Shown: positions 12,699 through 26,198 of the stretch, in pieces | How the letters are laid out: every line of letters starts with the position of its first letter | How positions within the stretch are numbered: position 1 is the first letter of the stretch | Notes under the pieces: generated by a model | Told to the model about the DNA's origin: nothing | Seen by the model: the letters and a program-made list of their open reading frames with translations, nothing else | Database searches by the model: none | Made by a program: the position numbers and the translations under genes | Source of the DNA: Balneolaceae bacterium | GTDB lineage: Bacteria > Bacteroidota > Rhodothermia > Balneolales > Balneolaceae | DNA: 39,256 nt | Reading direction: 5' to 3' | NCBI GenBank assembly: GCA_020832415.1 | Contig: JAFIES010000001.1 | Span: forward strand, 1-39,256

Positions 12699-15600
12699 TT
12701 AAGCTGCCGTAAGATATTCAGTTGGTGTTTTACTGAATTGTTCACGGAAAGATTTTGAGAATTGGGCCACACTTTTAAACCCTGTTGAGTAGGCAACTTC
12801 ACTCACTGTACCCATATTCTGTTTCAGCAGATCGGCACCACGCTCCAGGCGCATTCGTTTTATCATGGCGCTTGGTGTTTCTCCCGTAAGTTCTTTAAGG
12901 CGCCGGAAGAGGTGCGTTCTGCTTTGAAACATTTTTTCCGCAAGATCTTCAACCGAAAACTCTTCGTTCTGCATATTTTGCTGAACAATTTGCCTTATCT
13001 GCTCAAGGTATTGTTCATCGGCCGATTCCATCTCAACCGTATCAGGATGAATAGATTTTTTCTGATCGGTAATATGCCCGCCCTGCCGTTCGTAATATTT
13101 TTGAAGACGTTTTTGTCGCTCAATCAAATTGTGCACGCGGATGGTTACCTCTTCCATACTGAATGGTTTGGTGAGATAGTCGTCTGCTCCAATTCCGAGT
13201 CCTTCAAGTTTATCCTCAGCTTCTGCGCGTGCTGTGAGTAGTATGATGGGCAGGAAATCTGTTTCAGGTTCATTCCTGAGATTTTTCAATAGCGTAAATC
13301 CATCACCATCGGGCATCATAATATCAGAGATGATCACATCCGGTGGGAAATTCTTAATCTTATCCAGAGCTTTATTACCTGATGCCGCCTCAATCACTCT
13401 GTACTCATCTGAAAAATGATCCCGCAAATAGCTTCTGATATCTATATTATCATCAACTACGAGCAGTGTTTTTCGGTCATCATCTTCATCACGAGTTTGA
13501 TCACCATCGTCAATTACAGTAACCTTGTCGGGCAGCAGGAACTCTTCAAGCCCCGAATCACTCACTTCCAGTTTCAGGTCTGCCAGTTCCTCATCCCGAA
13601 CAATTACCAAAGGAATCCGGACGATGAATGTAGCTCCTTCACCGGGTGTGCTCTCAACCTCAATAGTTCCGGCATGCTGCTCTGTGATCTCTTTTACAAG
13701 GGCGAGGCCAATTCCTGTGCCCGGCTGCATTTCTGATTTTTCAGCCTGATAAAACCGATCAAAAAGGCGCGGTAAATGTTCCGGCGATATTCCCTGCCCG
13801 GTATCTCTCACAGTAATCACAGCAAATTCTCCGCTGCTTTCCAGTGCAAAGATTACTTTCCCGCCTTCGGGAGTGAATTTAAACGCATTTGATAACAGGT
13901 TGGAAATTACTTTTTCAAACTGTTCGGGATCGAATGATGCGATGATTTTCTCATCCGGAATGTTGATTTCGAAAGCGATATTATATCGCTCAGAGGCACC
14001 CACAAAGCGCGATGTAAGGTATCTGAGGTATTGATTTAGCTCGGCAGTATCGGGTTTAAGTTTAAAAAGATTGGCCTCGAAACGAGCCAGGTCCATCAGC
14101 TGTGTAACCAATCTCATGAGGCGTTTGGCATTCCGTGTGGCCATATCAACCTGAGCTTTACCGGCTTCTGTAAGTACTCCATATTTCTCTTTATGAAGAT
14201 TTTCGAGCGGGGCAATCGTAAGGGTTAACGGTGTTCGGAATTCGTGGCTGATATTGGCAAAAAAGCGGCTCTTTTCGGCATCAAGCTGTTGTAGTTTTTC
14301 TGCCTGTGCTTCGGTAATTTTTTTCTCCTCCCGCAGCTCTTCGGTTCGTTTATTTACAACATCCTCAAGATACACTTCGCGTTTTCTCAAATTTCTGAGG
14401 CGGTAACGATCCACCCCATACAGAAAACCTGCAATAAGCAATACATAGAGTGAATACGCCCACCAGGTGTGCCACCACGGTGGTAAAATTGTAAAAGCAT
14501 ACTCCCCGATGTTGCTGATGGAACCATACGTATTCATCGCCCGAACCTGCATCACAAAATCGCCGTGTGGAAGGTTGGTATAATCCCTGAAGGTTTCAGG
14601 TGACCAGCTTGACCAGTTACTATCAAAACCTTCAAGTTTAACCTGATAACGCGTACTGCTTAGATCATCAAAGAAATTTGTTCCATACCTGAACCTGAGT
14701 GCATTGTTTTGATAACTGTATGAAGCGGCCGTGAGTTGCGCCCCTCTGTTTCCACCAAACAGCAGGTCTTCGTTGTTTGAAACTTCTCTTATGAAGGCAT
14801 TAAATTCTATTCCATCAGGATATTGCGAATTACTGTCGAACCGAATTAATCCGTCTGCGATACCAATCCAAATAATGCCGTCATCTTCAGGGTAAATGTA
14901 CTGAATGCCGCCGGACGGAGTCCTGCCCAGAGCTTTTCGATAAAGCGAATCGGGTTGATGGGTTAGAGTTGTGATGTAACCGCTGCCTTTATTCGTGGAA
15001 ACCCAATACCGGCCATCATTTCCGCTAACCAGCCTGCTGAAGCTCATAAGCTCATCAGAGTCGGATGTAATCTCTGTAATATTTGGTGTAAAAGGATTAT
15101 CGGGGTTCCAGGGGTCGCTTGGCCTAAAGAGGCCCGAAGCAGTAAGGATAAATACATTTCCCTCTACAGAGCTTACATTCACGGTATTGCTGTTAAAATA
15201 ATCCTGATTGCTGAACCGCTGAATGATTTGTGCATCAGAAGAGATGTCGGCACGTATCAATCCCTGGAATTCTGTGCCAGCCCAAATTATACCATCATCA
15301 TCCTGCACGAGGCTGTAGACCTGTTCTGTTACTCCGTCCAATTCCAAAATCTTTTCCCATTCACCATTCCGGTGTGTAACAAGCACAATTCCATCCAGGT
15401 GGCCAACAAGATATAGTTCAGGATCAAAATCAGAACGTCTTATAGTAACTGCTTCGAGATCGGGAACCACTATTGTGGTTCCGCTCTTTTCCACTGATAC
15501 CAGCCCTGCACTTGTGGTCAGTAACAATCCATTCTCTGTTTGCAGCAACCTTCTGTTGTTGTTTGTGGTAACGGGTACAGAAACAAGCCTTGCCGGCTCT

Positions 15601-16697
15601 CCATTTTCACCGGGCTGCAAGTAGTTTATCGTTGAGGAAGATGTGGCAAAAATTGTGGCGTTATGGCGCGCAATCCCTTCAACAGATGATGAAATTCCAA
15701 CTGAACGATCGAAATAGGTAACCGGACTTGAGATCTCTATTCTGGAAAGTCCGTTCGTGGTAGTAACCCATAAATTATTGAATCGGTCGGTAAAGACATT
15801 GGAGCTCTGATTGGTTGGAAGCTTTTCCTGGTCATTAAAAATTCTCAATATAGTTCCGGCATAATTGGTCAGATAGACTCCGCTTCTGATGGTTGCGAAT
15901 GCATAACCCACCCCCTTTACTTCCGTTACGTTATAGAGGTCCATCTCCCCAAGAATTGGCGAAATTTCCATTTCAACCGGTTCAAACGTTTCTCCATCGT
16001 AAGAAAAAGTACCATCTCTTGTGGCAACAAATACAGATCCATCGGGTTGCCGGTTCATATACCAAATTGCTCTCTCTTCAAAAAGCTCCCCACCCTCAAC
16101 AAACTCGAATGTACTCCCGTTTAACCGCTTTAAGCCAATTTCAAGATCCACTGCATAAATATCATCTCCAACAGTGTGTATTCGTTCAAATCGCTCCTCC
16201 GGCAAAAGAGTGTGCAGAGAATCGTTTCTGTCGAGGTGAAAAATAGCGGCCCTTGTTCGGAAGAAAATACCATCGGATGTAGCTACAGTTTCCCACACAT
16301 CTTCAAAATTTCTGATCTCTTCAGGTACACGATCAAGAAATGAGACATATTGGGGCTGACCCAGTGAATCTGATTTGATTTCACCTATATCATTTACGGA
16401 TCCCACAAAAATTCGATTATCTGCACCCAAAGCCATTGAACGAACCAAACGTCCACCTGCAACTTCAATCATTTTCCACTCTACACCATCGTACTCTAAG
16501 AGGCCGTTCCCATTTGCGATATAAATAAGGCCCTTATCGTCCTCAAGAGCTTCCCAGTTTTGATTGTGTCCATTATACTCAGATGGCATAAATTGCTGAT
16601 AATAGAATCTGCCTGCTTCAGGATGGAACTGAGCGTAAAGAGCCGAAACCGGCACGCAAATAAATAGAATCAGAAGTGAAATTACATTGCGGCTCAT
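12699..16697 (-). CDS. Hybrid two-component system protein: periplasmic propeller sensor, histidine kinase, receiver, AraC DNA-binding domain
   Basis: This 1332-residue protein has the full HTCS architecture. There is a signal peptide (MSRNVISLLILFICVPVSALYA), then two-component-regulator-propeller blades to about residue 680 and a Y_Y_Y domain near 690-740. One transmembrane helix (about 745-765) and a short coiled coil lead to HisKA with H818 in NISHEFRTPL. HATPase_c follows with NLLSNAFKFTPEGG, DTGQGIS and GTGIGLALV. The receiver has phospho-acceptor D1125 in SDIMMPDGDG, and the last 110 residues are an AraC helix-turn-helix. It should sense a periplasmic ligand and bind DNA itself. HTCS proteins in Bacteroides control polysaccharide loci, but no carbohydrate gene is nearby. 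Its kinase and output halves closely match those of the protein at 22485-24713. Confidence 0.95.
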   Translation of the reverse strand: MSRNVISLLILFICVPVSALYAQFHPEAGRFYYQQFMPSEYNGHNQNWEALEDDKGLIYIANGNGLLEYDGVEWKMIEVAGGRLVRSMALGADNRIFVGSVNDIGEIKSDSLGQPQYVSFLDRVPEEIRNFEDVWETVATSDGIFFRTRAAIFHLDRNDSLHTLLPEERFERIHTVGDDIYAVDLEIGLKRLNGSTFEFVEGGELFEERAIWYMNRQPDGSVFVATRDGTFSYDGETFEPVEMEISPILGEMDLYNVTEVKGVGYAFATIRSGVYLTNYAGTILRIFNDQEKLPTNQSSNVFTDRFNNLWVTTTNGLSRIEISSPVTYFDRSVGISSSVEGIARHNATIFATSSSTINYLQPGENGEPARLVSVPVTTNNNRRLLQTENGLLLTTSAGLVSVEKSGTTIVVPDLEAVTIRRSDFDPELYLVGHLDGIVLVTHRNGEWEKILELDGVTEQVYSLVQDDDGIIWAGTEFQGLIRADISSDAQIIQRFSNQDYFNSNTVNVSSVEGNVFILTASGLFRPSDPWNPDNPFTPNITEITSDSDELMSFSRLVSGNDGRYWVSTNKGSGYITTLTHQPDSLYRKALGRTPSGGIQYIYPEDDGIIWIGIADGLIRFDSNSQYPDGIEFNAFIREVSNNEDLLFGGNRGAQLTAASYSYQNNALRFRYGTNFFDDLSSTRYQVKLEGFDSNWSSWSPETFRDYTNLPHGDFVMQVRAMNTYGSISNIGEYAFTILPPWWHTWWAYSLYVLLIAGFLYGVDRYRLRNLRKREVYLEDVVNKRTEELREEKKITEAQAEKLQQLDAEKSRFFANISHEFRTPLTLTIAPLENLHKEKYGVLTEAGKAQVDMATRNAKRLMRLVTQLMDLARFEANLFKLKPDTAELNQYLRYLTSRFVGASERYNIAFEINIPDEKIIASFDPEQFEKVISNLLSNAFKFTPEGGKVIFALESSGEFAVITVRDTGQGISPEHLPRLFDRFYQAEKSEMQPGTGIGLALVKEITEQHAGTIEVESTPGEGATFIVRIPLVIVRDEELADLKLEVSDSGLEEFLLPDKVTVIDDGDQTRDEDDDRKTLLVVDDNIDIRSYLRDHFSDEYRVIEAASGNKALDKIKNFPPDVIISDIMMPDGDGFTLLKNLRNEPETDFLPIILLTARAEAEDKLEGLGIGADDYLTKPFSMEEVTIRVHNLIERQKRLQKYYERQGGHITDQKKSIHPDTVEMESADEQYLEQIRQIVQQNMQNEEFSVEDLAEKMFQSRTHLFRRLKELTGETPSAMIKRMRLERGADLLKQNMGTVSEVAYSTGFKSVAQFSKSFREQFSKTPTEYLTAA

Positions 16698-16973: not shown

Positions 16974-17402
16974 TTAGCCTATTACAAAAATTCTCGGGGG
17001 TGAGTCTCCCGTTGCAAAAACAAGATCACTGTGTACAAATATAGCATATGTGTAGGTGCCTACTCGAATATTCCTGCCTACAACAAGATTCAGAATGTTA
17101 CCATCTCGTATGGTTCGGTTTCCGTCGCCAAATAGTGCGTCATCGTCAAACTGAAAAGATAAATCAGACCCTTCGGCAGTCCAGCGGACCCGATCACCCT
17201 TTCTGACAAAAACAGTACCGGTTGATTCATCATCTTTGAGAACTACCTTCCACTCGCCATCTATCTGTTTCACAACCAGCTCATGCAGAGTGGATTGTGC
17301 CTCAGCGGATGGTTCCTGAGCTTCAAAATACCCGCCTGAATTGCCTGATAAAAAAGTCATCCCAAAAAGCATGATGGCTATATGTATACATTTTGTTTTC
17401 AT
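16974..17402 (-). CDS. Small exported cupredoxin-like protein, last gene of the kinase-phosphatase operon
   Basis: The ATG at 17402 was preferred over a start at 17474, which would overlap the kinase gene and lacks a signal. The 142-residue product starts MKTKC and has a hydrophobic stretch typical of an export signal. The mature part is beta-rich: VFVRKGDRVRWTAEGSDLSFQF, IRDGNILNLVV and GTYTYAIFVHS resemble plastocyanin/cupredoxin strands (the V-x-KGD-x-V-x-W pattern). The usual copper ligands (His, Cys, His, Met in the C-terminal loop) are not evident, so copper binding is doubtful. It begins 49 bases after the kinase stop. It may be a periplasmic partner or sensor of the kinase, which spans the membrane; that is inferred from position alone. 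Confidence 0.65.
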   Translation of the reverse strand: MKTKCIHIAIMLFGMTFLSGNSGGYFEAQEPSAEAQSTLHELVVKQIDGEWKVVLKDDESTGTVFVRKGDRVRWTAEGSDLSFQFDDDALFGDGNRTIRDGNILNLVVGRNIRVGTYTYAIFVHSDLVFATGDSPPRIFVIG

Positions 17403-17451
17403 AATTATTCCGTTACGTTGGTTGTTGTTGGTTAATACAAGTTTTTGAAAT

Positions 17452-20082
17452 TCAATTATCCTGAAGCTCACCAAATCTTGGATCTGAAATAAGATTCTGC
17501 AACTCCGGCTGACCTCTTATTTCAGATATGGAATACCCGGCTTCAATTGCTTTTTCTATGTAAATGAGTGCTTCCTCCCTCTCGCCAAGATACTCAAAAG
17601 TCGCTGCAGCAAGGTACATTACCGTTGAATTATCAGGTGCTAATTGAAGTGCCCTGCTGATATACGATCTGGCAGCCTCTTCATTTCCTACTCGAGCATT
17701 ATAACCTGCCAGACTAATGATTGCATCGGCATCATTTTCATTTACTTTTAACGTTTCGTTGGCGGCTTCAATGGCGCGCAGATAAGCATTCCGGGCCTTT
17801 TCGCGCTGACCGGGTGCATAGTAATACGCTGTGGCAAGATTTCCCCATAAGAAATAATGTGTGTCATTAAATTCGAGGGCCGTTTCATAAGCCTTTGCAG
17901 CATCAGCATACAGTCCTTCTGCATAATAGAGTGTTCCAAGATTGGATGCAGCACCAAAGGTCTGTTCAAATTCAAGCGATTTTTCATACATCGCTCTGGC
18001 TTCACTCAGCATGCCTGTAAAGTAGTACATACTGCCAAGGTTCAGGTAACCGCGATAATTATCGGGTGTAAGCTCAATCACACGCCTGAACTGCTCCTTC
18101 GCCTCTTCATATCGTGTATTTCTAAAATAGAATGCACCCAGCGCATTGTACCCGTCCCAGTTGTCTGGCTTGAGCTGTATGGCACGCAGATAGGTTGCTT
18201 CAGCTTCATTGAGATCACCGGAAGATTCATATGCCTGTGCCATCCCTTTATGAGCTTCTGCATTTGTAGGATCGGCAGAAAGTGCGTCTGTAAAGTGCTC
18301 GATCGCTTCTGAATATCTGCCTGTACCGGTTTTTATCATTCCCAAAGTAATGTGAGCCTGCAATAATCGGTTGTTCAGTCTGTAAGCCTCGTTCGCCTGT
18401 TCAGATGCCAGTGTAGCCCAGTTACGGTCAAGCGTATTCTCATACAACCTCCAGTAGGCATGGCCAAGCGCTGCGTGTGCAAGTGCAAATCCGGTATCCA
18501 GTTCTATGGCTTCCTTAAATGCTGTGATGGCCTGTTCAATATTGTCAACCCTTTCGTAGCGCTGCAGATACCCGAGGCCTTTCATATAGAGCTCAAAAGC
18601 TTCGGGTATGGAGGTTTTCCCTTCGTTGATGATACTGATCGATTCAGGATTAAGCTCCAAATTGAGCATGCTCAGAAGGTTTTCAACTGATTTTTCATGC
18701 AACTCTAAGAGATTATTTTCATCCACATCTATTACTACGGAGTTTAGCTGACGAAGATTTCTCGAATCGATGAGTGTAAGAGTTAACCTGAGCCTATTTG
18801 CAAGTGGTTGAAGGCTGCCTGCAATGGCGTAATTCACTTTAAAAAGCTGATACGCCTGCCCGGCGCTCGCTATGTTATAACTGCGCACTTCTCCCGCCGG
18901 CACTACCCATAAATTTCTCTGAAACTGCTCCATTTGCGACAATTGGCTGGTGAGCGTTTCAACAAGGCCATCGGCAAATACCTGTCTGCCCGGGTCCGAT
19001 CCGATATTTGTAAATGGCAGAACTGCAAGATGAACCGTGTCGTCATCGGCAGATGAAAACCACGACTGGTTGGACCCCGGACGCACCAAAACCCATAAAA
19101 TTGCAATAATTAAAACCCCGGCAACTCCTGCCAATATACCTTTTTGCCTCTTATTTACTTTATATACTGTTGGTTTCGTAGCAGAATAATTCCCCGAATA
19201 AAGCATATTGCCAATAGCTTGTAAATCGGACAGAACCTCTGTCATGCTTTGATAGCGTTCATCCACATCTTTAGACAAACAGCGGCTTACAATTTCTTCC
19301 AGTCCATCTAAGAGTTCACCATCAGCACTTTGCAGCGGTGGCGGATCAGAATTGATTATGGAATAGATGATGGAGTGGTCATAATCCCCCCCAAAAGGAA
19401 GTTTACCTGACAGTATCTCATACAGAACCACACCAAACGACCAGATATCGCATCTTGGTTCCGCCGGTTCTCCTCTTACTTGCTCGGGAGACATATATGC
19501 GGTAGTACCAACTGTTGTACCCTCTTTCGTTAGCTGAACGCTATCGGCAATTTTTGCGAGGCCAAAATCAAGCAGTTTAATCTCATTACTGCTGCTTACC
19601 ATAATGTTTGCAGGCTTCACATCACGGTGTGTTATCTCTTTCTTGTGAGCTGCTTCAAGGCCTCTCGCAATTTGAATGGCGTAGCTCAGTACCGCCTTGG
19701 AATGGCTGTATTCCGGCTGATCTGCTGAAGATCCGGCTGCTGAATCGGTTACAATACCGGTTTCCTGAGCTTTAATTTTTTTAATGAATGACTCATGGAG
19801 ATTGGCTCCATCAATGTACTCCATTACAATAAACTGCTTGCCGGCTTCATCCTCTTCAATTCCATACACCTGGCAAATGTTGGGATGATTCATCTGTGCA
19901 ACTGAACGTGCCTCTTGTAAAAACCGGGCCCGGTTCTCTTCACTTACGGGAGTATGATCAGGTACAAACTTAATTGAAACATCCCGATTCAGTTTGGTAT
20001 CCAGAGCTCTGTAGACCACCCCCATGCCACCTTCACCGAGCTTTTCTGTAATTCTATAATGGGAAATGGTTTTATTAATCAT
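17452..20082 (-). CDS. Transmembrane Ser/Thr protein kinase with TolB-like domain and TPR repeats
   Basis: This 876-residue protein opens with a Hanks-type kinase domain: GEGGMGVVY glycine loop, K38 in SIKFV, D154 in HRDVKPAN, DFGLAKI, an activation segment with TTVGTTAYMSPEQ, and subdomain IX DIWSFGVVLYE. All catalytic residues are present. A transmembrane helix lies at about residues 315-335. Next is a FlgO/TolB-amidohydrolase-type N-terminal region (LAVLPFTNIG, FADGLVETLTSQL), as in many CadC- and adenylate-cyclase-like sensors. About eight tetratricopeptide repeats fill residues 480-860. The kinase should be cytosolic with its TPR part outside, unless the topology is reversed. It is preceded by the ABM-like gene (66-base gap) and the phosphatase gene, which likely opposes it. 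Confidence 0.94.
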   Translation of the reverse strand: MINKTISHYRITEKLGEGGMGVVYRALDTKLNRDVSIKFVPDHTPVSEENRARFLQEARSVAQMNHPNICQVYGIEEDEAGKQFIVMEYIDGANLHESFIKKIKAQETGIVTDSAAGSSADQPEYSHSKAVLSYAIQIARGLEAAHKKEITHRDVKPANIMVSSSNEIKLLDFGLAKIADSVQLTKEGTTVGTTAYMSPEQVRGEPAEPRCDIWSFGVVLYEILSGKLPFGGDYDHSIIYSIINSDPPPLQSADGELLDGLEEIVSRCLSKDVDERYQSMTEVLSDLQAIGNMLYSGNYSATKPTVYKVNKRQKGILAGVAGVLIIAILWVLVRPGSNQSWFSSADDDTVHLAVLPFTNIGSDPGRQVFADGLVETLTSQLSQMEQFQRNLWVVPAGEVRSYNIASAGQAYQLFKVNYAIAGSLQPLANRLRLTLTLIDSRNLRQLNSVVIDVDENNLLELHEKSVENLLSMLNLELNPESISIINEGKTSIPEAFELYMKGLGYLQRYERVDNIEQAITAFKEAIELDTGFALAHAALGHAYWRLYENTLDRNWATLASEQANEAYRLNNRLLQAHITLGMIKTGTGRYSEAIEHFTDALSADPTNAEAHKGMAQAYESSGDLNEAEATYLRAIQLKPDNWDGYNALGAFYFRNTRYEEAKEQFRRVIELTPDNYRGYLNLGSMYYFTGMLSEARAMYEKSLEFEQTFGAASNLGTLYYAEGLYADAAKAYETALEFNDTHYFLWGNLATAYYYAPGQREKARNAYLRAIEAANETLKVNENDADAIISLAGYNARVGNEEAARSYISRALQLAPDNSTVMYLAAATFEYLGEREEALIYIEKAIEAGYSISEIRGQPELQNLISDPRFGELQDN

Positions 20083-20148
20083 TGATGCGATTCAATTCTC
20101 TTAGATACTGCCTGATTGTACCATTCTTTAATTTCGGAGGCCATTTCG

Positions 20149-20907
20149 TTACACAAATTTCTTTCCTGTAATCAACTCGAACTTACTTATGCCAATATCC
20201 TGGCTTGTAACTGCACTTTTACTCTTTGAGCGTGATTTAAGCACCATTTTCCATTGATAAAGCCCACCCAGTGTATGATTTGCCTGCTCGAGAAACTGTT
20301 TAAACATTCCATGTTTTTCGTACTTCTCAACGGTTTCTAAATCTTGCCATATTGATAATGAGATCATTTCACCGTCATTCTCTGAGTTATCGAGTAAAAA
20401 TGCGTATCGGCACCCCGGTATTTTCTTCAATTCCGGTAATATCTCTGTGTTATAAATTTTTCTGAACTCTTCTTTAAATCCTTCTTTAACCTTTAAGGAT
20501 AAAATCCTGAGAATGTTACTCTGATTGGTTATTTCATCGGGAAGCGGCTCCGGATTTTCTGCCGTCGGATACAATTTTACACTTGGCTCAATTGGTATCT
20601 CTTTGTACTCAACCATATTGTCATCAGATAGCTGAATTTTCCATTCGCTTTTCTCTTCAAGCAAATGCTGAACTGATTCAAGATTTTTCTGATAACTGCC
20701 TGATGCCTCATAGACCTCTGCATCTTTTTCCGATTGCCAAAGCGTTAATGATATGTACTTAAACTCCTGATCTCTGCTGTGAAGTAATCCTGCAAAAATG
20801 CACCCCGGAACTTTTTCAAGGGATGTTAAGATCTTTTCTGCATACACTTCTCCAAGTAAATATTCACCCTTCTTTTTTACGGTTGCCTCTACCATTCTCA
20901 GATACAT
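20149..20907 (-). CDS. Tandem ABM-like (dimeric alpha-beta barrel) didomain protein
   Basis: The 252-residue protein consists of two related halves. Each has a leading strand (YLRMVEATVK; ILRILSLKVK), a helix, the motif (V/I)PGC(I/R)(F/Y)AxLL, then an acidic loop and (I/M)ISL(T/S)(L/I)WQ, a helix and a WK(I/M) strand. That is the antibiotic-biosynthesis-monooxygenase/heme-degrading (ABM) ferredoxin-like fold, usually a dimer of single domains, here fused. No cofactor is used by classical ABM enzymes, and heme-binding members need His or Asn residues I cannot place. The start is ATG 20907, with GGAGG seven bases upstream; a TTG six bases earlier is unlikely. It sits between a phosphatase (15-base gap) and a kinase, so it may be their substrate or ligand-binding partner. 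Confidence 0.8.
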   Translation of the reverse strand: MYLRMVEATVKKKGEYLLGEVYAEKILTSLEKVPGCIFAGLLHSRDQEFKYISLTLWQSEKDAEVYEASGSYQKNLESVQHLLEEKSEWKIQLSDDNMVEYKEIPIEPSVKLYPTAENPEPLPDEITNQSNILRILSLKVKEGFKEEFRKIYNTEILPELKKIPGCRYAFLLDNSENDGEMISLSIWQDLETVEKYEKHGMFKQFLEQANHTLGGLYQWKMVLKSRSKSKSAVTSQDIGISKFELITGKKFV

Positions 20908-20922
20908 AGCCAAACCTCCGGT

Positions 20923-22251
20923 TTAGTTGTTTACCCGCTTTATAGCCAGTGCTGTAAGATCATCAAACAGTTTTGCATTACCACAGTGTTTCAGGCAGCT
21001 GCCAACTACAGTTTCAATCAATGTATCGGACGTTTCTCCGCTTTGGAGTGAATCTATCAGCAGTTTTTTAAGCCGCTCTTCACCAAACATCTCTTCCTGA
21101 ATATTAGTGGCATCCGTCACACCGTCAGAAAAGACAAACAGAAATTCACCTTCATCAAGTGTAAACCTATCTTCTTCGTACTCCATGCCATCCATCATGC
21201 CAAGTGGCAGCCCGCCGGTTTGCAATCTCTCAAAAGTGCCATCTTTACGCATTAAAAAAGGATAGTCGTGTCCGGCACTTGAATAGCTGATTTCATTGCT
21301 GTTCGTATCGAGTATGGCTATAAACAGGGTGGCAAACTTTTCGGCACTGGTACTCTGATAGAGCTGACTGTTTGCGTGTTTCAGAATTTCGCCGGGCTTT
21401 ATGAGGTGAAATGCTTGTCCGCGTAAAATGGCCTGCAGATTGGTCATCAGCAGGGAGGCAGGCAGCCCTTTGCCGCTTATATCACCCAGGCAAAATACCC
21501 ACCGGTTTTCATCCAGTTTTATATAGTCGAAATAATCACCTCCAACTTCCTGCGCTGTTATATTCTTTCCTGATACAGAATATCCGTGAATAACAGGCGG
21601 CTCTTCAGGCAGCATTTTTTTCTGGATGGATGATGCAAGTTCAAGCTCTCTGCGCATAAACCGATATGCTTGCTCCTCTTCGTACAACCGTGCATTCTCA
21701 ACTACCTGCGCCGATTGTGCCGCGATAATTGCCAGCAACCTTTGATCAGACTCAGAGAAAACTGAATCCGATTCATTCCGTTTATTATAAATCGTTAGAA
21801 TACCGATTAGTTTTGAACGTGCCATCAATGGCGCACTCAAAACCGATTTTATGGTACTGTCCCATTTCACATTTCTGAACCTTTCATCATTTCCCGGTTC
21901 ATTAATCATCAAAGGCTTTTTGTTGATCTGCATCCACCCCAGCAAGTTCTGATTGAGATGCAGAGGAGAGTGCTCGGTTGTACTGATCATGCTTCTTACA
22001 AGCGTTTGCGTAGGATTGGCCTGATTTACATCAATCAAGGTGATGTCGCCCTGTTCGGCCCCTAAAGCACGTATGGATTTGCCAATAATAGAACGCATGA
22101 TTTTTTCACTATCCAGACTACCCCCGATAGCAAGTGCCAGATCGTTCAAAATGGCTAGCTCATCAACAGCTCTTCTAAGGCGGACATTCTCTTCCTGTAG
22201 CTGCTTAAACTTTGCAGCAGACAGATCACTATCAGGATTATTGGATATCAA
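20923..22251 (-). CDS. GAF-domain SpoIIE/PP2C-type serine phosphatase
   Basis: The 442-residue protein starts with a short coiled coil (FKQLQEENVRLRRAVDEL), then a GAF domain (about 35-195) ending in AQSAQVVENARLYEEE. Another helix, ELASSIQKKMLP, leads to the SpoIIE/RsbU-like PP2C domain. Metal-binding residues are visible at GGDYFDY (D239), GDISGKGLPASL, FSDGVTDA and the final DDLTALAI. It is cytosolic and should dephosphorylate Ser/Thr phosphoproteins, with GAF tuning activity. The only in-frame start upstream of the coiled coil is TTG at 22251, following an in-frame stop; the next ATG (codon 53) would cut into the GAF domain. It is the first gene of the operon that continues with the ABM didomain and the Ser/Thr kinase. 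Confidence 0.92.
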   Translation of the reverse strand: MISNNPDSDLSAAKFKQLQEENVRLRRAVDELAILNDLALAIGGSLDSEKIMRSIIGKSIRALGAEQGDITLIDVNQANPTQTLVRSMISTTEHSPLHLNQNLLGWMQINKKPLMINEPGNDERFRNVKWDSTIKSVLSAPLMARSKLIGILTIYNKRNESDSVFSESDQRLLAIIAAQSAQVVENARLYEEEQAYRFMRRELELASSIQKKMLPEEPPVIHGYSVSGKNITAQEVGGDYFDYIKLDENRWVFCLGDISGKGLPASLLMTNLQAILRGQAFHLIKPGEILKHANSQLYQSTSAEKFATLFIAILDTNSNEISYSSAGHDYPFLMRKDGTFERLQTGGLPLGMMDGMEYEEDRFTLDEGEFLFVFSDGVTDATNIQEEMFGEERLKKLLIDSLQSGETSDTLIETVVGSCLKHCGNAKLFDDLTALAIKRVNN

Positions 22252-22484: not shown

Positions 22485-24713
22485 TCAGGCTGAGTGCCCC
22501 ATAAAGTGTGTTGGCGGCTTGCGGAAATGTTTGCTAAATGACGAAGAAAACTGGGCCACACTTTTAAATCCGGTTGAGTAGGCAATTTCGCTCACGGTGC
22601 CTGCTTTCTGTTTGAGCAGATTCATCCCTCGTTCAAGCCGCATTCGCCTTATCAGTGCACTTGGAGATTCATCGGTAAGATCCCGAAGCCTTCTGAAAAG
22701 CTGTATTCTGCTTTGATACATCTTTTCAGCAAGATCTTCAACTGAAAAAAACTCCTCATGCATGTGCTGTTGAATGACCTGCCTTACCTTCTCCAGATAC
22801 AGATCATCTGTGGATGCCGCTTCAATCACGTCAGGGCTCATGGTTACGCCTGTTGAATTGGTACTGCTATTTTGATTCGCATAGTGCTTTTGCAGACGTT
22901 TTTGCCGCTCAATCAGATTATACACCCTTAATGAAACCTCTTCCATACTAAAAGGTTTTGTAAGATAATCGTCAGCACCGATACCCAATCCTTCGAGTTT
23001 GTCTTCTGCCTCAGCACGGGCAGTAAGCAAAATTACAGGCAGAAAATTAGTTTCTGAATTACTTCGCAAATTTTTCAACAAAGTAAAGCCATCTCCGTCG
23101 GGCATCATCACATCAGAAATAATAAGGTCCGGCAAAAACTTAAGGGTTTTTTTCAGAGCCTTGTTTCCCGATCGCGCTGTAATCACTCTGTACTCATCAG
23201 AAAACTGATTTTCCAGATAGGTGCGAATATCTTTGTTGTCGTCCACAACAAGGATTGTTTTTAGTTCTTCATCAGCTTCCTCATCCGCATCTTCATCCAG
23301 TGAAAATGCTTTTTCGGGCAGAAGAGCTTCTTCAATCCCTTCTTCGCCCGACAAATTAAGTTCAACAACTGCAGATACATCCACATTTTCTAAAGGCAAG
23401 ATGATACTGAATTCAGTTCCCCTACCTGATTTACTTGTAACATCAACCCGCCCCCCATGCTGCTCGGTGATCTCTTTCACAAGGGCAAGCCCAATACCGG
23501 TGCCCGGCTGCATTTCCGATTTTTCGGCCTGATAGAAACGATCAAATAGTCGCGGAAGATGATCCGGGTCTATTCCTTTTCCTGTATCTGTAATCCGGAT
23601 AATGGCTTCTTTTTCATTTTTTTCAAGAGTAACAGAAACATCCCCACCTTCCGGCGTGAATTTAAAAGCGTTAGAAAGCAGATTAGAAATAACTTTTTCG
23701 AACTGCTCCGGGTCAAATTGTGCGATGATTACATCAGAAGGTATGTTGATTGAAAAGTTAATGTTATAGCGTTCTGCAGCACCAACAAATCTCGAAGAGA
23801 TGTGGCGTATATACTGATTTAGGGGAGCATTTTCAGGTTTTAATCTAAACAGGTTTGCCTCAAATCGGGCGAGATCCATCAGCTGGGTAACCAGTCTCAT
23901 CAGCCGTTTTGCATTCCTGGTGGCCATATCAACCTGCGCTTTACCCTCTGTAGTTAGAGTGCCATATTTTGGTTTACTGAGATTCTCGAGTGGCGCTATT
24001 GTGAGGGTGAGAGGGGTTCTGAATTCATGACTGATATTTGCAAAAAACCGGCTTTTCTCAGCATCAAGTTGTTTCAGTTTTTCGGCTTGAGCTTCTGTAA
24101 TTTTTTTCTGCTCCGATAGTTCGTTGTTTTTATTTGTGAGCAATCGCATCGCATTAATCCTTCCGTTTTCGAATACAATGGCAATCACATAAAAAATCAA
24201 TATCAGCCCCACAAATGTGGATAGAACAAAAAACAGCGGGGGCTCATTAAGTGAGCCTTCGGGTGGTGAAAATTCAATCCGTTCAAAATAGTAAAACATT
24301 ACCAGCATGGTTAATTGTCCAAACAGCGTGTACATCCCCATCAACTTTCCTGAAACGAGCAGGGCTACAATAGGCGTAGTTGCCAGCCAGGGAAGAATGA
24401 ACGAGTTAAACCCTTCTGTGTAGTAAATAACCGTACTGATGAGGATAATGGCAGATGTGAAAAAAAGAAATGCGATTTTAATCTGCGAAACTGCATTTCT
24501 GAAAAGAGTGAGGCAAATCAGTGAGATGATGAACAAAGGCACCTGTGATAGCAGACCTCCACTGAAATCTATAAAGAAACTAATTGCGGAGTAGCTGAAT
24601 GTAAATAGCGCAACAACAATATAAACACCAACAGCAAGCCTCGACTTCCGGAGTGTTTCATCATCCCCGCGATATTCATCAGGAATAAAATAATCGATTA
24701 GCTTTGCAAACAT
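22485..24713 (-). CDS. Membrane hybrid histidine kinase with receiver and AraC DNA-binding output
   Basis: The 742-residue protein begins with a six-helix membrane domain (about residues 28-195, after LRKSRLAVGVY) that has no periplasmic sensor. It continues to HisKA with H229 in NISHEFRTPL, HATPase_c (NLLSNAFKFTPEGG, DTGKGID, GTGIGLALV), a receiver with D534 in SDVMMPDGDG, and a C-terminal AraC helix-turn-helix (about 640-742). It is an HTCS-like one-protein signalling chain in which a membrane input replaces the propeller. The kinase-receiver-AraC part is very close to that of the protein at 12699-16697, while the membrane domain matches the separate kinase at 24810-26198. Gene duplication and domain exchange within this locus is the simplest explanation. 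Confidence 0.95.
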   Translation of the reverse strand: MFAKLIDYFIPDEYRGDDETLRKSRLAVGVYIVVALFTFSYSAISFFIDFSGGLLSQVPLFIISLICLTLFRNAVSQIKIAFLFFTSAIILISTVIYYTEGFNSFILPWLATTPIVALLVSGKLMGMYTLFGQLTMLVMFYYFERIEFSPPEGSLNEPPLFFVLSTFVGLILIFYVIAIVFENGRINAMRLLTNKNNELSEQKKITEAQAEKLKQLDAEKSRFFANISHEFRTPLTLTIAPLENLSKPKYGTLTTEGKAQVDMATRNAKRLMRLVTQLMDLARFEANLFRLKPENAPLNQYIRHISSRFVGAAERYNINFSINIPSDVIIAQFDPEQFEKVISNLLSNAFKFTPEGGDVSVTLEKNEKEAIIRITDTGKGIDPDHLPRLFDRFYQAEKSEMQPGTGIGLALVKEITEQHGGRVDVTSKSGRGTEFSIILPLENVDVSAVVELNLSGEEGIEEALLPEKAFSLDEDADEEADEELKTILVVDDNKDIRTYLENQFSDEYRVITARSGNKALKKTLKFLPDLIISDVMMPDGDGFTLLKNLRSNSETNFLPVILLTARAEAEDKLEGLGIGADDYLTKPFSMEEVSLRVYNLIERQKRLQKHYANQNSSTNSTGVTMSPDVIEAASTDDLYLEKVRQVIQQHMHEEFFSVEDLAEKMYQSRIQLFRRLRDLTDESPSALIRRMRLERGMNLLKQKAGTVSEIAYSTGFKSVAQFSSSFSKHFRKPPTHFMGHSA

Positions 24714-24809: not shown

Positions 24810-26198
24810 TTATACTGAAAGAGTAATAATAAATCGGGTACCCGTTTCAACAGTTTCTATTGCAAGCTTACCACCGTGTGCTTTAATAATGTCATTTGTG
24901 ATGGATAATCCAAGCCCTGTTCCCTGAGTTCCTTTCTTTGTGGTAAAAAATGGCTGAAGTATTTTTTCTTTGATCTCGTGAGGAATGCCGGGGCCGTTAT
25001 CCTCGATTTCCAGGATAATCTCTGAACTCTCCCTTTGAGTTCGAATTACAAGCTTTGGCTTATACTCTTCAATATTCAGTTTTTCTCTCATCGCATCAAA
25101 CGCATTATTGCAAATATTCAATATTACGCGCGAAAAATCCTCAGCAACAAGCGGCACTTCGCCAACCTGATCATCCAATTCCAATTGGATGTCAACATTA
25201 ATTGGGTCATTCCCTGCACGCATACCATGAAAAGCTAATTTTACATACTCATTAATAAGATGATTAAGAGGAGTTGGATCCATAGATCCGTCTCCGCCGC
25301 GGGAATGCTGAAGCATTGACATAACTATACCATTAGCCCGCGATCCGTGCTCATGGATTTTACGGAGGTTAGCTTCAATGTCATCGAGGATTTCGAGGAT
25401 GAGATTGGAATCGGGGCTCGATCCAACCTCTTCCCGCACCTCATCAACCATTTCAATACTCACCTCAGAAAAATTATTCATAAAGTTCAGCGGATTTTTT
25501 ATCTCATGGGCAATTCCGGCAGTTAACTGCCCAAGGCTTGCCAGCTTTTCCTGCTGCACGAGTTGTTCCTGTGTGCTTTTTATTTTTTCGATCGCTTCTT
25601 GCAGGTCTTCATTTTTATCTGTCAGCAGGCTCATGGCATTCATCCGGCCATTCTCAAAGACTATAGCCACTGCATAGAAAATTAGTATCAGTCCGGAATA
25701 TGTCGACAAAACATAACTTACAGCCGGCTCAGTAAGAGATCCGGCAGGCTGAGGAACTCCGGTTATTTCAAGCAGATAAAAAACTGACAGCATTGCTAAC
25801 TGACCGGTAAGTGTATAGATACCCATCTTCTTTCCGGATACGAGCAGGGCTACAATAGGTGTGGTAGCCAGCCATGGAATAATAAAAGAGTTGAAGCCTC
25901 CCGTATAGTAGATGGCAGTGGAAATAGAGAGTATGGCCGATGTAAAAAAGATGAACGCAACTACTTTCTCAGAAATGCCTTTTTTAAACATCAGCAGGCA
26001 GAGAATTGAGATAAACATAAGCGGTGCCTGCGACAAAAGCCCACCCTCAAAACTGATAACAATATTGATTACCGAATAACTGAAGGAAAACAGTGTTACA
26101 ATTATGTATACACCTACGGCGAGCCTCGATTTTCTGAGCGTTTCTTTGTCATCGCTGTAAAAATCAGGAATAAAGAAATCGATTAGTTTAGTAAACAT
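24810..26198 (-). CDS. Membrane sensor histidine kinase (HisKA/HATPase)
   Basis: The 462-residue protein shares its first 205 or so residues with the downstream hybrid kinase (MF(A/T)KLID(Y/F)FIPD, then LRKSRLAVGVYI), forming six membrane helices. A coiled coil with the motif KIKSTQEQLVQQEKLASLGQLTAG leads to H231 in IAHEIKNPLNF. The ATPase domain has NNAFDAM, DNGPGIP and GTGLGLSI. No receiver or DNA-binding domain is attached and no separate response regulator gene is in the window. It may cross-talk with the receiver of the adjacent hybrid kinase, 96 bases downstream. This kinase subtype often follows multi-helix inputs in Bacteroidota; the signal is unknown. Confidence 0.94.
   Translation of the reverse strand: MFTKLIDFFIPDFYSDDKETLRKSRLAVGVYIIVTLFSFSYSVINIVISFEGGLLSQAPLMFISILCLLMFKKGISEKVVAFIFFTSAILSISTAIYYTGGFNSFIIPWLATTPIVALLVSGKKMGIYTLTGQLAMLSVFYLLEITGVPQPAGSLTEPAVSYVLSTYSGLILIFYAVAIVFENGRMNAMSLLTDKNEDLQEAIEKIKSTQEQLVQQEKLASLGQLTAGIAHEIKNPLNFMNNFSEVSIEMVDEVREEVGSSPDSNLILEILDDIEANLRKIHEHGSRANGIVMSMLQHSRGGDGSMDPTPLNHLINEYVKLAFHGMRAGNDPINVDIQLELDDQVGEVPLVAEDFSRVILNICNNAFDAMREKLNIEEYKPKLVIRTQRESSEIILEIEDNGPGIPHEIKEKILQPFFTTKKGTQGTGLGLSITNDIIKAHGGKLAIETVETGTRFIITLSV

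Follow-up and report, generated by a model that had tools for sequence, protein, structure and literature searches.

The adjacent genes for a GAF-SpoIIE phosphatase (PP2C), a tandem-ABM protein, a Hanks-type Ser/Thr kinase and a predicted exported protein, here called CUP, belong to a modular unit, in which the phosphatase and the kinase form the core and the ABM protein is an accessory. With moderate confidence we regard the locus as a membrane-linked Ser/Thr phospho-switch, in which the Hanks kinase would be the writer and would act on a STAS protein, on the ABM protein, or on both. The locus lies in a stretch of 39,256 nucleotides (the whole of the DNA analysed, called the window) belonging to a 3.9 Mb genome (G000). 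Its features, with the genes taken from the list of open reading frames, are as follows:

20923..22251, minus strand: PP2C phosphatase gene, 442 aa
20149..20907, minus strand: tandem-ABM gene, 252 aa
20197..20208, minus strand: codons for residues 234-237 (TSQD), among them Ser235, the candidate phospho-acceptor, located from the alignment of 49 homologs and from pLDDT
17452..20082, minus strand: Hanks-type Ser/Thr kinase gene, 876 aa
16974..17402, minus strand: CUP gene, 142 aa

The original prediction described four same-strand genes separated by 15, 66 and 49 bases, the first two encoding a GAF-SpoIIE phosphatase and a two-domain ABM protein; the open reading frames and their coordinates confirmed the layout, and Pfam the two proteins. 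The starts given for ABM, the kinase and CUP are the ATG codons that their homologs use. The promoter scan of the locus yielded 13 sites against 12.2 in shuffled sequence, which is no excess, and the terminator-like sites (8 against 4.7 in shuffled sequence) were not used as evidence. The operon is flanked by histidine kinase genes (window 12699-16697, 22485-24713 and 24810-26198 (-)), two of which encode hybrid sensor kinases with a receiver, an AraC-type HTH and a closely similar shared core. At least one of the three flanking kinases is kept in the closest relatives, and they are mostly absent in other genera. At the beginning of the window the plus strand (601-2871) holds a run of short overlapping open reading frames, in which no Pfam, Rfam or tRNA match was found; it is possibly a broken gene or a non-coding stretch, and the G+C content is higher (0.53 in positions 1-2000).

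The phosphatase consists of a GAF domain (1e-10) and a SpoIIE domain (1e-49), and is thus a SpoIIE/RsbU-type enzyme with a sensor domain; it is cytosolic and probably the opponent of the operon's kinase. In the kinase Pfam recognised a Pkinase domain (2e-51) and TPRs, and a scan of the sequence found the glycine loop, the Lys, HRDVKPAN, DFG and SPE motifs all in place. There is a single strong transmembrane segment at about residues 318-336, after the cytosolic kinase domain, therefore the TPR region is expected to lie outside the cytoplasm. The extracellular PASTA repeats were not found by Pfam or NCBIfam, the TPR region standing in their place, and the NCBIfam PASTA-kinase model reached 286 of 450 bits, which is below the cut-off. 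The kinase had also been credited with a TolB-like part; the kinase and TPR assignments stood, but no TolB model was among the best 25 matches listed, and the TolB label rests on a reading of the sequence.

CUP had no match in Pfam or NCBIfam, and no member of its family matches Pfam significantly. Its AlphaFold model (pLDDT 84), whose best Foldseek matches were plastocyanin and amicyanin (E 1e-5), together with a signal-like N-terminus, agrees with the earlier description of a cupredoxin-like exported protein as far as predicted fold and export are concerned, and we take CUP to be exported and to have, by prediction, the cupredoxin beta-sandwich. The copper ligands did not hold up: in the loop that would carry type-1 ligands (His, Cys, His, Met), neither Cys nor His nor Met is conserved among 18 homologs, and a conserved FA-x-G-x-SPP motif replaces the Cys-His-Met loop, on which grounds a copper protein was rejected. 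Sequence matches of CUP in the PDB to a mitochondrial transcription factor were judged to be due to chance and discarded.

An argument for a conserved unit comes from the neighbourhoods of tandem-ABM genes in other genomes. A search of 296 genomes of the phylum found a tandem-ABM match in 22, and an alignment-based search of 244 genomes of the class in 41, a patchy distribution. Profiles of the five proteins (PP2C, kinase, CUP, ABM and STAS) served to score the neighbourhoods at 47 tandem-ABM loci from 11 families; these are related sequences, so the locus counts are not independent, and four close relatives obtained from a contig scan, being the same records as L073-L076, were counted once. 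Within 5 kb of the ABM gene and on the same strand there was a PP2C at 40 of the 42 informative loci (95%) and a kinase at 37 of 43 (86%), and every linked PP2C and kinase was co-directional with ABM. By chance a same-strand PP2C or kinase would be expected this close at about 1% of the loci, because a genome has about 8 SpoIIE genes and as many kinase genes (8). The ABM protein is thus not one that occurs mostly without the two enzymes, an outcome under which the original prediction would have failed. In the window's family 17 of 92 genomes carry ABM, all 17 with a window-type PP2C, and the copy adjoining ABM scores at least 495 bits; two genomes of the family have such a PP2C without ABM. 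Where a genome holds several ABM copies (three in G307, two in G211), each has its own adjacent PP2C, and at L031-L034 the ABM and kinase reading frames touch or overlap. The order of the four genes recurs in related genomes, exactly as PP2C-ABM-KIN-CUP at 11 loci, counting the window's own (W), from three families, f1, f2 and f51 (W, L031-L035, L073-L075, L077, L097).

The unit can be taken apart. In the two genomes that have the PP2C but no ABM, one locus (L122) reads PP2C-KIN-CUP with ABM cleanly missing and the other (L123) PP2C-KIN, therefore ABM depends on the PP2C-kinase pair and not the pair on ABM, and ABM cannot be the sole target of the two enzymes. The idea of four genes acting as one system accordingly survives as a conserved unit, but not as an indivisible one. 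CUP belongs to the kinase rather than to ABM: it adjoins a kinase also where the genome has no ABM (L066-L070, L072, L125), and in most of these cases a divergent PP2C is present. At five loci (L037, L042, L081, L083, L094) PP2C and ABM were found with no kinase within about 8 kb, where a kinase may act from elsewhere in the genome; at L041 neither PP2C nor kinase was found near ABM. Several arrangements were recorded alongside. At L038, L043, L046, L047 and L049 the PP2C-ABM pair is accompanied by Hanks kinases of about 700 and 900 aa, two to four in tandem; L038 and L043 also encode a conserved 112-aa protein. One genome of the window's genus has two tandem kinase-CUP pairs (L072 5811-12264), and L069 (1567-9192) holds two related sigma-factor-like genes, ECF-type by sequence, each followed by a kinase, with CUP after the first kinase.

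In a tree of the phosphatases, made by a quick method and having several open forks and three label changes, 38 of the 40 ABM-linked PP2Cs fell in one subfamily, which also contains those included from the ABM-less CUP-kinase loci and stands apart from the remaining PP2Cs that these genomes encode. The two exceptions, both from family f25 (L039, L040), belong to another subfamily and occupy the same position beside ABM. In most cases, therefore, one and the same phosphatase has accompanied ABM, and a different one took its place once; the replacement reads as if the activity itself were required.

The ABM protein has two Pfam ABM matches (1e-20), fits the ABM superfamily profile, and is modelled by AlphaFold (pLDDT 77) as a tandem ABM fold, the two halves being 34% identical to each other. 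Its C-terminal tail carries a [T/S]-S-x-D motif with Ser235 and Asp237. In the alignment Ser235 is kept in 48 of the 49 homologs and residue 237 is acidic in 47, while positions 222-233 are variable; residues 218-235 have pLDDT below 50. A serine conserved in a variable tail has the look of a phospho-acceptor, which makes Ser235 a candidate phosphosite. It could equally be a structural cap, as it precedes the last strand. We infer that the kinase phosphorylates the ABM protein, and STAS is an equally good candidate substrate. Tentatively, and short of an even chance, we propose a previously undescribed signalling system in which ABM acts as a novel kind of phospho-switch partner: its binding would be toggled as the Hanks kinase phosphorylates, and the GAF-PP2C dephosphorylates, the serine of its tail, either alongside STAS or instead of it, and the copper-less CUP would be the kinase's dedicated ligand or sensor.

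The runner-up, on balance rather unlikely, is that STAS is the only phospho-target, in a partner switch where a Hanks kinase takes the place of RsbW, and that ABM, itself unphosphorylated, binds a ligand or a protein and regulates the phosphatase or the kinase. STAS (anti-anti-sigma) proteins are the classical substrates of SpoIIE-type phosphatases (PMC2887360), and a STAS protein of this type lies within 5 kb of ABM at 19 of 35 informative loci (a first pass of the survey had found eight loci with STAS near ABM). Often it is directly beside PP2C (L037, L042, L040, L093), the first two of these being PP2C-ABM loci with no kinase nearby. The phosphorylatable serine (N/D-S-[S/A]) was present in 23 of 23 STAS proteins. 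Two loci (L077, L097) have the five-gene set STAS-PP2C-ABM-KIN-CUP, and L091 the same five genes in another order. The tighter linkage of ABM to PP2C than to the kinase, and the persistence of PP2C-KIN without ABM, favour the same explanation. Against it, many ABM loci, including that of the window, have no STAS nearby, and the conservation of Ser235 would be left unexplained.

The window locus contains no STAS gene, hence no STAS antagonist with a phosphorylatable serine, and no stand-alone HATPase_c_2 gene (the RsbW/SpoIIAB kinase); such genes are found at C37, C44 and C56 of the genome, C37 having the classical STAS-RsbW-PP2C set. STAS is the likely missing part of the window locus, and is probably supplied from contig C56, whose STAS protein is 72-75% identical to those of the ABM loci L091, L096 and L097. 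There (L100, 25-6193) the STAS gene directly precedes a Hanks kinase gene. The genes divergent from this pair encode an RsbW-like ATPase, another STAS protein, an ECF sigma factor and a protein in which the NPSFAELA repeat occurs many times; the ECF sigma factor is apparently placed in a partner-switch setting.

It is improbable that ABM is an enzyme, of monooxygenase or heme-degrading type, and that the operon regulates its catalysis rather than a phosphorylation state. The Pfam assignment itself would fit, as would the Foldseek results: the best matches were two-domain proteins annotated as putative monooxygenases, HmoB and a sulfur oxygenase reductase came lower, and anthrone-oxidase-like proteins also matched. 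W57, W187 and C36 are invariant among the 49 homologs, as is a GC in the first repeat. The positions of Trp and His in the heme-degrading Asn-Trp-His triad of IsdG/HmoB are, however, Tyr and Leu (repeat 2 aligned to IsdI), on which ground heme degradation was rejected, and clustering of the neighbours revealed no recurrent biosynthetic family. In repeat 1 residue 66 is Tyr in 46 of the 49 homologs.

We consider it very improbable that the genes are together through common inheritance of an ordinary operon and that neither ABM nor CUP has a functional tie to the kinase and phosphatase; the closest relatives do keep wider synteny (L027 retains the flanking histidine kinases), but the pairing is seen in 11 families with otherwise different neighbours, and also in paralogous copies of a single genome, where the gene order is rearranged and where another PP2C has been substituted. 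That the locus is an anti-phage defence cassette whose effector is the kinase is scarcely credible, and this reading was rejected: the presence in 41 of 244 class genomes is patchy and the kinase matches PADLOC kinase models, but these matches are confined to the generic kinase domain, PP2C, ABM and CUP gave none, and no system-specific or other defence genes were recognised near the locus.

Returning to the phospho-switch, the transmembrane kinase would be the writer and would read an envelope signal through its extracytoplasmic TPR region, with the exported CUP as a possible partner. The GAF-SpoIIE phosphatase would be the eraser, set by a cytosolic signal via the GAF domain. Between them would stand the soluble targets, the tandem-ABM protein with Ser235 and the STAS protein with its serine, which about half of the relatives have. 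A phosphate on either or both may change their binding partners, and so alter gene expression or another downstream activity. That a Hanks kinase can act on a STAS protein has a precedent in M. tuberculosis, where the anti-anti-sigma protein Rv0516c is phosphorylated by PknD, with a response of the SigF regulon (PMC4601284).

Across 11 families the unit links a kinase with the phosphatase that probably belongs to it, with an exported partner and with two candidate substrates, both soluble, and it offers in each of these substrates, ABM and STAS, one serine to mutate. For many bacterial Hanks kinases we know of no partner. If the proposal is true, it would give a function to the tandem-ABM family, now labelled monooxygenase, and to the Pfam-less CUP family; it also suggests that Hanks kinases can play the writer in STAS-type switches. 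In line with the earlier statement that no described system with this gene order was known, a literature search covering few subscription papers found no description of this kinase-phosphatase-ABM-CUP system.

It is useful to compare the locus with known systems. Partner switching of the SpoIIAB/RsbW type also has a SpoIIE-type PP2C with a sensory domain and a STAS protein with a phosphorylatable serine, the latter shared by about half of the related loci. In our locus, however, the kinase is a membrane Hanks kinase and not an RsbW ATPase, genes for a sigma or anti-sigma factor are absent, STAS is missing from the window copy, and the tandem-ABM protein and CUP are added. The PknD-Rv0516c (OprA)-SigF pathway shares a transmembrane Hanks kinase, an extracytoplasmic sensor and a STAS-type anti-anti-sigma target (PMC4601284). 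PknD has a beta-propeller and the phosphosite in its pathway is Thr2, both unlike the locus described here. To our knowledge, that pathway includes neither an ABM protein nor a CUP. As in the PASTA kinase/PP2C pairs (PknB-PstP, PrkC-PrpC), a Hanks kinase and a PP2C-superfamily phosphatase are encoded together, but here the phosphatase is SpoIIE-type with a GAF domain, and the kinase has a TPR region, not PASTA. The ABM protein shares with the IsdG-HmoB proteins the ferredoxin-like alpha+beta ABM fold and two repeats per chain, and differs from them in the lost heme-degrading Trp and His, the signalling neighbourhood and the conserved serine of the tail. CUP resembles plastocyanin and amicyanin in its predicted fold, but has FA-x-G-x-SPP for their Cys-His-Met loop and no Pfam family. 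Seen against these systems, the locus is the kinase/phosphatase/STAS logic with two uncharacterised conserved components, ABM and CUP.
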